Below, piece after piece: positions 27,190 to 31,746 of a DNA stretch of 64,000 nucleotides. Origin of the DNA: Bradyrhizobium betae. Its GTDB lineage: Bacteria; Pseudomonadota; Alphaproteobacteria; Rhizobiales; Xanthobacteraceae. The stretch spans positions 620,001 to 684,000 of the forward strand of contig NZ_CP044543.1 of NCBI RefSeq assembly GCF_008932115.1. The letters run 5' to 3'. The notes below the pieces were generated by a model. It did not search any database. It saw only the letters and a program-made list of their open reading frames with translations, and was not told where the DNA came from. Each line of letters opens with the position of its first letter. The stretch's first letter is position 1. The translations under genes were made by a program, and so were the position numbers.

Positions 27190-28500
27190 TCAGGCGATTG
27201 CCGCTGGCAGCTTGATGACGATCCGCAATCCGGTTCGCTCACCCTCCGTGATGTTCACGGCGTCGATCGACCCTCCGAGACGTTCGACGATCCGCTTGAC
27301 GATCGAGAGGCCGAGACCGACACCCTCACCTTCCGGCCGCTGCCCACGGAAGAACGGCTCGAAGATCCGGTCGATCTCGTCGGGCGGCACGCCCGGTCCA
27401 TTGTCCTCGATCTGAAGCACGGCCATCGCGCCGTCCCGGTAAATCGCCACATCGATCCTGCCACCCTGCGGCGTGAAACGGAGCGCGTTGTCGATGAGAT
27501 TGCGGATCATGGCCGCGAGCATGACGGGCTCTCCGCGCACCGGAACGGACTCGGCCCGTTCGAAGCCGAGATCGACGCCGCGGCTGATCGCCTCCTGCAG
27601 GAGATCGGCGATGACCCCTCTCGCTGCACGATCGAGCTCCACCACATCCCATTGCACGCGTTCGGCAGGTGCAGCGTCGTGCCGCGCCAGTGCAAGCAAC
27701 TGCTCCAGAAGGTGCTTGCTGCGGCGCATGCCCTGTCGAAGCGACGCTAGGCGCTCGCGCGCGGCCGGCGGCAATTCGACCTGGTCGAGATTTTCGGCTT
27801 GCAGGCTCATCGCCGTCAGCGGCGTGCGCAGTTCGTGCGCGGCGTCCGCGATGAACCGCCGCTGCTGCCCGATCATCTCGTGCATGCGCTGCAATAGCCC
27901 GTTGATCGAGGATACGAACGGCTTCAGTTCGCCTGGAAGGTCGCGGAGCGGCAAGGCCGTCATGTCGTCAGCGCGCCGGACGTCGAGCTCGTGCGCCAAC
28001 CGGACCATGGGTCGAAGCGATCCGGCGATGACGAAGGCGATCACCAGCATCAGGCAAGGGATCAACGCCGCGATCGGAAGCACGGTGCGCAGCGCCATGT
28101 CACTTGCGATCTCATCCCTCACCCCCGTGCTCTGCGCCACCGCGAACCGGCTGCCGTCGGACCGCGTCTTCAGCACCACCCGGACCGGCTTTCCCTTCCG
28201 CGTCGCATCGCGCATTCCGTCCTGGAGCCGCCACAGCTGGCGGTCCTCGGGTGTGCCCTGCGGCGTCTGTCCCAATTCCATCAACCAGACTTCGGAGGCC
28301 TCATCGACCCCGTGGAGGTCCTGACCTCCCGTGAAGCCACCGCTCTGAACGAGGCCCGCGATCTGGATCAGCACGGAGTCCTGCGTCTCGATGGCTTCGT
28401 CAGCCGCCCACCGGTGCGCAAACACGCCTCCGATGAGGCCCGTGAGCAGGACAATCGTCGTCAAGCTGATGAACAGCCGGCCGCGCAGCGAGTTGATCAT
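27190..28500 (-). CDS. Two-component sensor histidine kinase (DUF347 locus)
   Basis: About 436 aa. Two membrane helices (residues about 9-30, and the LPIAALIPCLMLVIAFVI segment near 140) flank a ~110-aa periplasmic sensor, followed by HAMP, a HisKA domain with the phospho-accepting histidine in DAAHELRTPL, and a HATPase with DNALRFTP, EDNGPGVPP and VGLGLSI boxes. QseC/PmrB-like architecture. The ATG at 28500 overlaps the response-regulator stop as ATGA, which decides the start over 28521. It probably senses an envelope signal and phosphorylates the regulator upstream. Confidence 0.94.
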   Translation of the reverse strand: MINSLRGRLFISLTTIVLLTGLIGGVFAHRWAADEAIETQDSVLIQIAGLVQSGGFTGGQDLHGVDEASEVWLMELGQTPQGTPEDRQLWRLQDGMRDATRKGKPVRVVLKTRSDGSRFAVAQSTGVRDEIASDMALRTVLPIAALIPCLMLVIAFVIAGSLRPMVRLAHELDVRRADDMTALPLRDLPGELKPFVSSINGLLQRMHEMIGQQRRFIADAAHELRTPLTAMSLQAENLDQVELPPAARERLASLRQGMRRSKHLLEQLLALARHDAAPAERVQWDVVELDRAARGVIADLLQEAISRGVDLGFERAESVPVRGEPVMLAAMIRNLIDNALRFTPQGGRIDVAIYRDGAMAVLQIEDNGPGVPPDEIDRIFEPFFRGQRPEGEGVGLGLSIVKRIVERLGGSIDAVNITEGERTGLRIVIKLPAAIA

Positions 28501-29159
28501 GGCGCGCGATCCACCATCCATCCCATCCCGCGCACGTTACGGATCGCCTCGTTGCCGAGCTTCCTTCGGATGGTGTGGATCAGGAATTCGACCGCATTGC
28601 TTTCGACCTCCTCGTTCCAGCCGTAGAGCTGCCGCTCGAGCTCGCTCCGCGACAGGATGGTGCCGGGCCTGGTCAGCAAGGCCTGAAGCAGCGCGAACTC
28701 GCGCGCGGTCAGGAGCGCGGTTTGACCACACAGCGACGCCTCTCGGGTCGCAGGATCGAGCGTGAGCTTGCCATTGCCAAGCACGGCGCTCGCGCCACTG
28801 CCCTCGCGGCGCAGCACCGCCCGCATGCGCGCCAGCAGTTCGCGGATCTCGAACGGCTTGACCAGATAATCGTCGGCACCGAGATCGAGGCCTTCGACCC
28901 TGTGGTCGACGCCGTCCCGCGCGGTGACGATGATGACGGGGCACTTGCAGCCATTCGCACGCAACTGCCGCAGGACATCGCGGCCATCCGCGTTCGGCAG
29001 CCCGAGATCGAGCAGCAGCACCTCGTAAGTCTCGCTCGCGGCAGCAAGCAGTGCGGTTTCGCCGTCCCTGACCCAGTCGACGGCATAGGCGGCATCTTTC
29101 AACGCCTGCTCGACGGCGGCGCCGACCATCCTGTCGTCCTCGATCAACAAAACCCGCAA
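28497..29159 (-). CDS. OmpR-family response regulator (DUF347 locus)
   Basis: About 220 aa: receiver domain with acidic pocket LLIEDD, phospho-acceptor Asp in LLLDLGLP and Lys in DDYLVKPF, then a winged-helix OmpR/PhoB DNA-binding domain (LTAREFALLQ, VEFLIHTIRRKLG). An ATG at 29204 is in frame, but a TTG at 29159 starts the protein at RVLLIEDD as is usual for the family, has GAGG six bases upstream, and leaves room for the operator repeats at 29212-29231. QseB/PmrA-like. Translationally coupled to the kinase gene. Confidence 0.92.
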   Translation of the reverse strand: MRVLLIEDDRMVGAAVEQALKDAAYAVDWVRDGETALLAAASETYEVLLLDLGLPNADGRDVLRQLRANGCKCPVIIVTARDGVDHRVEGLDLGADDYLVKPFEIRELLARMRAVLRREGSGASAVLGNGKLTLDPATREASLCGQTALLTAREFALLQALLTRPGTILSRSELERQLYGWNEEVESNAVEFLIHTIRRKLGNEAIRNVRGMGWMVDRAP

Positions 29160-29211
29160 AACGCGATCCTCGCACCCGCCGGGCCATCCGGCCGTCAAAA
29201 TCATGCCGATT

Positions 29212-29231
29212 CCGACTTAGCGCAGAGTTAG
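29212..29231 (-). promoter_or_regulatory. Response-regulator-like direct repeats, regulator side
   Basis: On the minus strand two repeats, CTAACTC (from 29231) and CTAAGTCGG (from 29220), start exactly 11 bases apart. This spacing is standard for dimers of OmpR/PhoB-type regulators. They lie just upstream of the regulator-kinase genes, suggesting autoregulation. Confidence 0.6.
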
Positions 29232-29289
29232 CAAGCGCCGGCGGGACCAAATTGCGGCGAAGTTCGTCCTGCCCCGAAAATCCTCGTCC

Positions 29290-29309
29290 CTAAGCCGGGC
29301 CTAAGTCGG
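29290..29309 (+). promoter_or_regulatory. Response-regulator-like direct repeats, DUF347 side
   Basis: CTAAGCCGG and CTAAGTCGG begin 11 bases apart (29290 and 29301), sharing the CTAAGtCGG core with the pair at 29212-29231. They lie 45-64 bp upstream of the first DUF347 gene, so the same regulator probably controls both sides of the divergent region. Confidence 0.62.
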
Positions 29310-29353
29310 CTGCGCGACGGTCCCGCACCGTTTCGGTTTTGGGAGATTTGGGC

Positions 29354-30136
29354 GTGTCGCGATATTCAGGCTTTGGCGCAGGACGGATGCTGAACAAGGT
29401 CCCGGAGGTCACCGCGATCTTCTGGGCCATCAAGATCCTATCGACCACAGTCGGCGAGACCGGCGCCGACTACCTCGCCGTGCATGTCGGCCTCGGCGCC
29501 AGCCTGACCGCAATCTGCATGTCCGGCCTGCTGCTCGCCGCGCTGCTGGTGCAACTCAGCCGTCGCGCCTACGTCCCCTGGATCTACTGGCTGACCGTCG
29601 TCCTCGTCAGCATCGTCGGCACGCAGCTCACGGACCTTCTCACCGACAAGCTGGAGATCAGTCTCTACGTCAGCACCGCTGCGTTCGCCTGCGCGCTCGC
29701 GGCAACATTCGCAATCTGGTACGGCGCCGAGCGGACGCTGTCGATCCACAGCATCGTCACGACACGGCGCGAGCTGTTCTACTGGACGGCGATCCTGTTC
29801 ACATTCGCGCTCGGCACCGCCGCAGGCGATCTGGCGACCGAAGCGCTGGGGCTCGGCTTCCAGCTCGGCGTCCTCGCCTTCGGCATGCTGATCGCGGCGG
29901 TGACGATGACCTATTACATGGGCGCCAATCCGGTCCTCACCTTCTGGCTCGCCTACATTCTCACCCGCCCACTCGGCGCCTCGCTCGGCGATCTGCTGTC
30001 GCAGTCGCGCGAGTACGGCGGCATGGGCCTCGGCACGATCCAGACCAGCATCGCCTTCCTGACCGTGATCATCGGCCTCGTCGCATGGGTGACGTTCGAG
30101 GGCGACGGCAGCCGCCGCGCCGATCCGGCGCAATAG
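29354..30136 (+). CDS. DUF347 four-repeat membrane protein (copy 1)
   Basis: About 260 aa of COG4705 with four tandem DUF347 repeats, each of two membrane helices with an aromatic-Trp pair and a Gly...Gly/Thr-Asp signature: [72 protein letters not shown]. Eight helices are predicted by eye. The role of the family is unknown. Start: a TTG at 29339 is in frame, but the GTG at 29354 has GGGAGA seven bases upstream. First gene of a three-gene plus-strand unit with a secreted protein and a second DUF347 gene, divergent from the two-component system. Confidence 0.87.
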
Positions 30137-30198
30137 CTTCAACCGCGAAATCTTCACCGCTCCCTGCATGGACGCAGGAGCACAGTAGGAGAAACCAC

Positions 30199-30600
30199 AT
30201 GATGAAATTCGTTACCGCCATCGCCGTCGGCCTGCTGACCACCTTCACGGCCGAACCGAACATGCATGCGAGCCAGCACTTCACGTTCGTGCCGCTGACG
30301 GAAGCCGCGACCGCAAAACTCGGCGACCTCACGCCGTTCCGGAGCATCGTGGTCGATGTCGCCGCGCTGATCGACAAGGGCGACCTTGCCGCCGCCAAGA
30401 CCCGGATCAAGGATCTCGAGACCAAATGGGACGAGGCCGAAGCCGGCTTGAAGCCGCGCGCGGCGGCCGACTGGCACACCGTCGACAAGGCGATCGACCG
30501 CGCGCTGGAGGCATTGCGCGCCGGCACGCCGGATGCGGCCAAGTGCAAGCAGGCCATCATCGATCTGCTCTCGGTCATGGACAGCGCCGCCAAGGCCTGA
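30199..30600 (+). CDS. Small exported protein between the DUF347 genes
   Basis: A 133-aa protein with an N-terminal signal sequence ([21 protein letters not shown], likely cut near MHA-S). The mature part is helical and charged, with an internal [19 protein letters not shown] coiled-coil-like stretch and [15 protein letters not shown] at the end; one cysteine only. No family recognised. The ATG at 30199 follows a good AGGAGA site; upstream in-frame codons encode nothing signal-like. Its place between two DUF347 genes suggests a periplasmic partner of that system. Confidence 0.82.
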
Positions 30601-30669
30601 CGCTGCCCGCGCACCGTCGTTCAGTCAGCCGCGGGTCCAGGCCGCGGCTGATGCAGCGGAGAGGACACC

Positions 30670-31461
30670 ATGGAAGACCAGACCAAGAGCGGCATCGTCA
30701 GCGACAGCAAGGTTCCGGAAGTCACACTCGGCTTCTGGATCATCAAGATCGCCGCCACGACGCTTGGAGAGACCGGCGGCGACACCGTGACGATGACGCT
30801 GAACTGGGGCTATCTCACAGGCACCGGCCTTTTTCTGGTCGCCATGATCGTCCTGGTCGCGGCGCAAATCCGCTCGCGCAGATTTCACCCCACGCTGTAC
30901 TGGGCCACGATCGTCGCATCGACCACATTCGGTACGACCATGGCCGACTTCGCCGACCGCTCCCTTGGCATCGGATACACCGGCGGCTCGACCTTGCTGC
31001 TCACCTGCCTCGTGCTGGTGCTCGGGGTCTGGTATCGCACCGAAGGAACAATCTCGGTCAACAGCGTCAGCACGCCGCGCATCGAGGCGTTCTATTGGGG
31101 CGCAATCACGTTTTCCCAGACGCTGGGCACCGCGCTCGGCGACTGGATCGCCGACACCGGCAACATGGGCTACCGCGGCGGCGCGCTCATCTTCGGAGCG
31201 GGCCTCGCGATCATTGCCGTGCTCTACCTCTGGACGCGCATCTCATGTGTCACGCTGTTCTGGGTAGCCTTCATCCTGACGCGTCCCTTGGGTGCGACAG
31301 TGGGCGACTTCCTCGACAAGCCGCTCGATCATGGCGGCCTCGCCTTGAGCCGTCCGCTTGCCTCGGCCGTGATCGCGGCGTTCATGCTGGTGTGCCTGCT
31401 GCTGATCCCGCAACGCGCGGGGCAGCATCCCCGCGATCAAGAGGTGGCAGAGCAGGCCTGA
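30670..31461 (+). CDS. DUF347 four-repeat membrane protein (copy 2)
   Basis: A 263-aa paralogue of the protein at 29354-30136. Four repeats are readable: GFWIIKIAATTLGETGGD, LYWATIVASTTFGTTMAD, FYWGAITFSQTLGTALGD and [18 protein letters not shown]. Both copies keep the same KVPEVT lead-in, and the Gly-Asp pair of each repeat is mostly kept. GGAGAGG precedes the ATG. The two copies have clearly diverged from each other, so this is an old duplication or a functional heteromer. No transport or enzyme activity can be assigned. Confidence 0.87.
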   Translation: MEDQTKSGIVSDSKVPEVTLGFWIIKIAATTLGETGGDTVTMTLNWGYLTGTGLFLVAMIVLVAAQIRSRRFHPTLYWATIVASTTFGTTMADFADRSLGIGYTGGSTLLLTCLVLVLGVWYRTEGTISVNSVSTPRIEAFYWGAITFSQTLGTALGDWIADTGNMGYRGGALIFGAGLAIIAVLYLWTRISCVTLFWVAFILTRPLGATVGDFLDKPLDHGGLALSRPLASAVIAAFMLVCLLLIPQRAGQHPRDQEVAEQA

Positions 31462-31482: not shown

Positions 31483-31746
31483 TTAACGAATGATCGTCGT
31501 CAGAGACGAGTAACGCCTGTTCGGCCTGGCTTCGCTCGGCGCGAATTGCGCAAAGGCTTCGCTGACGCGCGCCGCCGGCGGCGTGTCGCCGGCGAAGCGA
31601 AATTCCTTCGGCCGCGGCGCGTAGGTGCTGGCGCTGTAATAGGCGTCGTCGAAACGCGCCTCGCCGACCCCGAACAATGCGTCGCACACGAACAGGAGCG
31701 CGTAGACTCCCGCGACCGCAGCGACGATCTCCCTGACAACTGACAT
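31483..31746 (-). CDS. Small membrane-anchored hypothetical protein
   Basis: An 87-aa protein: one hydrophobic N-terminal segment (REIVAAVAGVYALLFVCDALFG) and then a polar, Ala/Arg-rich tail without known motif. The frame extends to 31857, but the ATG at 31746 gives the membrane segment at the N terminus. This kind of short protein is common in Bradyrhizobium. It converges on the second DUF347 gene with 21 bp between stops. Confidence 0.7.
   Translation of the reverse strand: MSVVREIVAAVAGVYALLFVCDALFGVGEARFDDAYYSASTYAPRPKEFRFAGDTPPAARVSEAFAQFAPSEARPNRRYSSLTTIIR

Follow-up and report, generated by a model that had tools for sequence, protein, structure and literature searches.

The five-gene locus and the mmf cluster

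A 64,000-nucleotide stretch of the Bradyrhizobium betae chromosome, referred to here as the window (C1:620001-684000, in a genome of 7.42 Mb and two contigs), carries a two-component system divergent from two genes for DUF347 membrane proteins, between which lies a gene for a small exported protein. This arrangement, first proposed in an earlier note made from the sequence alone, is confirmed by gene calls and Pfam domains. The features of the locus, in window coordinates, are:

27190-28521, minus strand: sensor histidine kinase, MmfS orthologue (HisKA 58 bits, HATPase_c 98.9 bits)
28497-29159, minus strand: OmpR/PmrA-type response regulator, MmfR orthologue (Response_reg and Trans_reg_C domains; TTG start)
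29216-29231, minus strand: candidate tandem operator CTAAC-N6-CTAAG facing mmfR (pattern scan and conservation)
29290-29305, plus strand: candidate tandem operator CTAAG-N6-CTAAG facing mmfC1 (pattern scan and conservation)
29354-30136, plus strand: DUF347 protein of the MmfC1 clade, D1 (four DUF347 repeats; GTG start)
30199-30600, plus strand: exported protein of 133 amino acids, MmfD orthologue (signal peptide and a predicted helical bundle of ~90 residues)
30670-31461, plus strand: DUF347 protein of the MmfC2 clade, D2 (Pfam DUF347; clade from the tree)

The kinase and regulator genes overlap by 25 bases. The two DUF347 proteins score 176.2 and 202.5 bits against the Pfam family, whose cut-off is 28.2, and the exported protein has no Pfam or NCBIfam family match at E 0.001. 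Two starts were set by comparison with relatives. That of the regulator is placed at TTG 29159 rather than ATG 29204, the position at which MmfR of the Variovorax plasmid pBS64 aligns from its residue 1, and that of D1 at GTG 29354 rather than TTG 29339, as the GTG and an upstream purine run are kept in close orthologues. The module is flanked by genes for 3-deoxy-D-arabino-heptulosonate 7-phosphate (DAHP) synthase and a hydrolase on one side and for ORF124 and an aldehyde dehydrogenase on the other, and these flanks are conserved in relatives. ORF124, which adjoins the module (31483-31743, minus strand), is a small conserved protein kept in syntenic relatives and without a Pfam or NCBIfam family at E 0.001.

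The earlier note regarded this module as undescribed. Instead, its genes and their order (C1-D-C2, R, S) are those of the mmf cluster of Tn6048, reported to be induced by zinc and lead. Ever since Tn6048 was first reported from Cupriavidus metallidurans CH34, the cluster has been on record as a strongly zinc- and lead-induced set without an assigned function. Its genes are named mmfA, mmfB, mmfC1, mmfD, mmfC2, mmfR and mmfS (PMC4914505), and Pb and Zn upregulate mmf (PMC2864759), which is present in CH34 in three copies, likewise upregulated by both metals and without known function (PMC12029693). When the pBS64 proteins were searched against the whole B. betae genome (one-directional best matches), the top match of MmfR was the window regulator (63%, 293 bits; runner-up 54%, 235 bits) and that of MmfS the window kinase (41%, 299 bits; runner-up 33%, 187 bits), while the sole match of MmfD was the window exported protein, at 63% over 95 residues (MmfD 49-143; window 30295-30579). 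Congruent with these matches, a branch with 100/100 support separates the C1 and C2 clades in a tree built from 70 DUF347 proteins, in which window D1 groups with MmfC1 and D2 with MmfC2. In Burkholderia vietnamiensis pBVIE02 the gene order is PepSY, undecaprenyl-diphosphatase, DUF347, signal-peptide protein, DUF347, regulator and kinase, with identities to the window of 66% for the first DUF347 protein, 66% (91 residues) for the exported protein, 61% for the second DUF347 protein, 62% for the regulator and 39% for the kinase. The C1-D-C2 cargo order and the regulator-kinase pair are common to pBVIE02 and pBS64. That the window locus is a chromosomal, divergently arranged five-gene mmf core (mmfC1-D-C2 and mmfR-S) is well supported by these sequence comparisons.

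Conservation and inheritance of the module

Linkage of the five genes, on which the earlier note staked its proposal, is conserved. Genus and phylum loci were picked by similarity to D2. The genus sample comprised 195 genomes, 94 with a D2 match, and one locus each was taken from 60 of the 93 matching genomes other than B. betae (the best match per genome, except in G463, whose chromosomal copy was used). Of these 60 loci, 36 contain the complete five-gene set, and of the 37 with D1, 36 have the exported protein as well. A second, named set consists of the best 80 of 565 loci by similarity to D1, and is therefore biased towards the module; it includes Bradyrhizobium, Methylobacterium, Paraburkholderia, Burkholderia, Undibacterium and Pseudomonas. 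Here the exported protein directly follows D1 in 78 loci. An MmfR-type regulator (at least 55% identity) is found in 52 and a plasmid-type regulator in six; 50 loci combine D1 and the exported protein with an MmfR-type regulator and an MmfS-type kinase, and 30 hold all five genes. The third sample was a phylum draw of 398 genomes, 47 with a match, in which 39 of 44 further genomes were examined (that is, minus G183, G679, G792, G509 and G600). Its 39 loci hold D1 in 11 cases, the exported protein with D1 in three and some OmpR-family regulator in 19. Finally, in a class draw, DUF347 scored above the cut-off in 18 of 289 genomes. The loci share ancestry, so the counts are not independent. Collectively, they describe D1 and MmfD as a tight pair within the module and MmfRS as its usual regulator there, with D2 often standing alone and the DUF347 family extending wider than the module. 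The earlier suggestion that the exported protein may assist both membrane proteins consequently finds partial support: adjacency in 78 of 80 loci makes a partnership with the first DUF347 protein likely, while the second is inherited more loosely.

Natural presence and absence at a single chromosomal site bears on the same question. Among 25 syntenic loci of the genus, DAHP synthase is found in all 25 and the adjoining hydrolase in 24, and ORF124 and aldehyde dehydrogenase wherever the stretch reaches. A block of four genes, namely the kinase-regulator pair with D1 and the exported protein, occurs in 18; the other loci (L053, L054, L055, L058, L060, L065 and L069) lack all four genes and keep D2. 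The exported protein is encoded in 18 of the 25 genomes, exactly those with the block. On the D2 gene tree the block label needs five changes, at least three of them forced by well-supported branches, and its clustering is not significant (65 of 500 shuffles are as low). From the syntenic pattern and the tree, the block appears to come and go as a unit, although exchange between strains could also be a source of the pattern. By the same comparison MmfC2 would be an accessory, inheritable without the other four genes.

The company kept by DUF347 genes elsewhere raises another explanation, namely that the module protects the cycling of undecaprenyl phosphate: this lipid carrier would be trapped by metals or by compounds like bacitracin, and DUF347 proteins would help to recycle or move it. 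Tn6048 has mmfB, mmf clusters often carry an undecaprenyl-diphosphatase, and 23 of the 80 named loci have a PAP2-type phosphatase close to D1. A PAP2 or undecaprenyl-diphosphatase gene also falls within the stretch in four of eight hand-picked annotated plasmid contexts (Azospirillum, with two DedA genes; Delftia; Brasilonema; and Cryobacterium, with DedA and UppP); in the Azospirillum (L231), cyanobacterial (L236) and actinobacterial (L237) ones DUF347 sits near PAP2 and two-component genes. UppP is again the neighbor in the DUF347 operons cited by a Frankia study (PMC4531530), and the minimal inhibitory concentration of bacitracin is given as 300 µg/ml with plasmid pHB44 compared to 40 without (PMC4914505). 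Conversely, the window module has neither a PAP2 nor an undecaprenyl-diphosphatase gene, PAP2 and BacA are each near only one of 39 DUF347 loci in the phylum sample, and the reported mmf inducers are Zn and Pb. On balance a role in the carrier cycle seems unlikely.

Candidate tandem operator boxes

The intergenic region contains CTAAGCCGGGCCTAAG at 29290-29305 (plus strand), facing DUF347, and CTAACTCTGCGCTAAG at 29216-29231 (minus strand), facing the regulator. The earlier note read these as two pairs of CTAAG(T/C)CGG repeats. One 11-bp tandem pair does face each unit; the consensus fits only three of the four half-copies, the distal regulator-side copy, CTAACTCTG, lying outside it. The pattern CTAAS-N6-CTAAG has two matches in the window versus 0.01 expected, and none of 100 shuffles gave two.

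In the 39 loci with D1 and a regulator more than 50% identical to that of the window, itself included, a box lies upstream of D1 in every case, with one or two pentamer bases differing in a few. A second box faces the regulator in 36; the misses are L047, L109 and L129, and in L109 and L129 D1 and regulator share one strand. Apart from these differences the pentamers are kept, and the inner six bases are variable. A conserved box thus precedes both transcription units, as expected if the regulator, as proposed earlier, controls both directions. Beyond this set, the region upstream of the operon's first gene was scanned in 81 of 83 loci (L146-L226, with L227 and L228 left out). The best box matches 9 or 10 of 10 bases in 58 of the 81, and all ten in 26; among 1,620 shuffled sequences, 0.8% reach 9 and none reach 10. 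Where an MmfR-type regulator is present, such a box is found in 48 of 53 loci, and where none is seen, in 10 of 28 (Fisher p 4e-7, uncorrected for kinship); contig ends hide genes in some of the latter. It is positioned near -72 from mmfA, or mostly at -83 to -122 from mmfC1, at mmf loci of alpha-, beta- and gammaproteobacteria, the transposon type included; many betaproteobacterial and pseudomonad boxes read CTCAG or CTATG-N6-CTAAG. That CTAAG-N6-CTAAG is a candidate operator accompanying the MmfR-type regulator in most loci examined is accordingly well supported, on comparative grounds.

The exact CTAAG-N6-CTAAG occurs once in the 7.4-Mb genome, upstream of D1, compared to seven sites for the reversed pattern. 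The 25 relatives have 41 exact sites, with one at the locus in 17 of the 18 that carry the four-gene block and in none of the seven that do not. Summed over these 25 genomes of the genus, the reversed control is about five times as frequent as the pattern itself (208 versus 41 sites). These counts bear on the proposal that the module serves general envelope stress (acid, osmotic or cationic peptide), with metals acting indirectly. Such a role would suit a regulator whose nearest models are QseB and PmrA, even though it scores under their cut-offs. One exact operator in the genome argues instead for a narrow, local regulon, degenerate sites being uncounted genome-wide, and the literature on mmf and DUF347 concerns metals (PMC4531530, PMC12029693, PMC2864759); a general stress module is quite improbable.

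Loci with other regulators carry other repeats. Five with a plasmid-type regulator (L009, L039, L074, L176 and L193, amounting to about two independent sequences) show a CTCAT-N6-CTCA(T/G) pair, which is absent from the searched stretches of L111, L168 and L231. L168 combines a plasmid-type regulator with a CTAAG box. Several Methylobacterium and Methylorubrum loci (L176, L177, L193, L194 and L196) have the same cargo with the other regulator type and another tandem repeat, suggesting that switch and operator were swapped together, with L168 as a counter-example. The second contig of B. betae itself (C2, 269 kb) holds a plasmid-borne paralogous set at L009 9016-15480, comprising a regulator, a kinase, PepSY, two DUF347 proteins, a TMEM165-like protein and a PAP2 phosphatase, with CTCAT-N6-CTCAG in place of the mmf box; a plasmid of Bradyrhizobium sp. 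SK17 encodes the regulator, kinase, PepSY, TMEM165 and PAP2 proteins of this set with 100% identity. Two further DUF347 sites lie on the same contig (L010 6900-15200). At one, the DUF347 gene occupies two frames and has VIT/rubrerythrin-like, cytochrome b561 and multicopper-oxidase genes close by; at the other, it lies near a split kinase and a regulator. On a plasmid of Bradyrhizobium sp. 184 (L042 2406-5436), kinase and regulator are each in two frames, and both DUF347 genes look full length. A full mmfA-B-C1-D-C2-R-S cassette also occurs on a 38.8-kb contig labelled viral, either a virus or a mislabelled plasmid (L226).

A probable metal response and its known relatives

Taken as a whole, the locus is best explained, with a probability of roughly 0.6, by a system in which MmfS senses metal excess at the envelope and MmfR activates a probable metal-handling membrane system. 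By analogy with kin, MmfS would detect excess divalent (heavy) metal and phosphorylate MmfR, which would occupy both tandem sites in the head-to-tail manner of PmrA and activate mmfC1-D-C2 together with its own operon. The acidic residues on the odd-numbered helices of MmfC1 and MmfC2 may then form a cation path, and MmfD may act as the extracytoplasmic partner of MmfC1, delivering or taking up metal. Metal as the signal is suggested by the published induction of kin. The Frankia paper (PMC4531530) cites lead-responsive upregulation of DUF347-UppP operons in a Bacillus isolate and induction of DUF347 by a divalent metal in a diatom; the family is further enriched in Arctic algae, where it is presumed to be a stress-associated metal transporter (PMC9756366), and in cold-adapted dinoflagellates (PMC6249206). 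Transport by the module, in turn, is suggested by residue pattern and context. MmfC1 and MmfC2 are both taken as membrane proteins of eight helices, as in the MmfC1 model (predicted local distance difference test score 92.9), and the conserved acidic residues E26/D30, D85, D150 and D204 (D1 alignment) occupy one position per odd-numbered helix. The MmfD model is helical over residues 45-132. At D1 residues 89 and 208 (A3 numbering), the 31 C1 proteins have D and Q where the 15 C2 proteins examined have R and K, a difference fitting either different roles for C1 and C2 or a complementary pair. A more specific version, which is possible but decidedly tentative, has MmfC1 and MmfD as a new two-part metal exporter, composed of an eight-helix, four-repeat membrane protein and an extracytoplasmic four-helix carrier under a single-target two-component switch, with recycling of undecaprenyl phosphate (UndP) coupled in some lineages.

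Several observations weigh against the metal-excess explanation. No PDB entry matches the DUF347 model significantly, which is why the case for transport falls to residue pattern and context. The box falls below 9 of 10 bases in 23 of the 81 scanned loci, five of them with an MmfR-type regulator, and conversely is found in the 10 of 28 whose stretch shows no MmfR-type regulator, among them L168 with its plasmid-type one. D1 is absent from 23 of 60 genus and 28 of 39 phylum loci, and just three of the 39 phylum DUF347 loci have an MmfR-type regulator. None of mmfA (PepSY), mmfB (undecaprenyl-diphosphatase) and eamA is found in the window module. As for phenotype, the mmf-carrying strain NOV2-1 of Cupriavidus gilardii is reported to show no difference in growth from the type strain with Cd, Co or Zn (PMC12029693), and the role proposed in the case of pHB44 is uptake of iron/vanadium (PMC4914505).

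This last proposal leads to iron, for which MmfRS would be a BqsRS/PmrAB-like sensor (ferrous or ferric) whose cargo imports or manages the metal. Directly after the first membrane helix, at the start of the sensor, the kinase bears the motif E-A-x-E-x-Q-D, including an ExxE, invariant in 23 of 23 aligned kinases. The ExxE position may, against this idea, be common to QseC-like kinases in general. The Azospirillum copy has FTR1 and further genes of iron transport next to it, an Acinetobacter DUF347 gene has a VIT gene as its neighbor, and the operator layout is that of the BqsR box. Growth effects of Fe and V are linked to pHB44 (PMC4914505), although these are effects of the whole plasmid, and the reported mmf inducers, Zn and Pb, are not iron. 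An iron sensor is hence doubtful, and excess of a divalent heavy metal is retained as the preferred signal.

For mmf function, the comparison offers a defined candidate operator, a minimal gene block repeatedly present or absent as a unit at one locus of the genus, a tight MmfC1-MmfD pair and named residues. It also places mmf kin in the chromosomes of many soil and plant-associated proteobacteria, beyond metal-resistance plasmids and transposons. In the literature searched, which leaves most subscription papers outside, the accessible text describes for mmf neither an operator nor a structure, nor a survey across classes.

Among known systems, PmrAB and QseBC provide the best NCBIfam models for the window pair, and BasR (PmrA) chains are the best-scoring solved structures for its regulator. 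In Klebsiella, the PmrA box consists of half-sites CTTAAT and CCTAAG, five bases apart and head to tail (PMC3973317), and the window operator similarly has tandem head-to-tail half-sites in an 11-bp repeat. Regulator and kinase fall under the equivalog cut-offs (QseB 219/345, PmrA 213/330, QseC 215/475 and PmrB 163/314 bits), and the linked genes differ from those of the window module. BqsRS (CarRS) of Pseudomonas aeruginosa, compared by box architecture only, has the same layout of two pentamers six bases apart. Its box is TTAAG(N)6TTAAG, with 432 candidate operators at two or fewer mutations (PMC4682146), as opposed to the pentamer CTAAG and one exact site here, counts that are not alike in kind. 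The DUF347-UppP operons of the Frankia metal paper resemble the window in a DUF347 membrane protein, theirs tied to the lead response, but include an UppP gene, and in the accessible text MmfD and MmfRS go unmentioned. The closest relative is mmf of Tn6048 itself (mmfA B C1 D C2 R S eamA, with copies on pMOL98, pHB44 and pBS64), alike in its C1- and C2-clade DUF347 proteins, the secreted MmfD encoded between them, the MmfR/MmfS kin and the tandem operator. In contrast to the transposon copy, that of the window is chromosomal, at a locus conserved in relatives and with no transposon seen; its kinase and regulator genes diverge from the cargo, whose operon dispenses with mmfA, mmfB and eamA.

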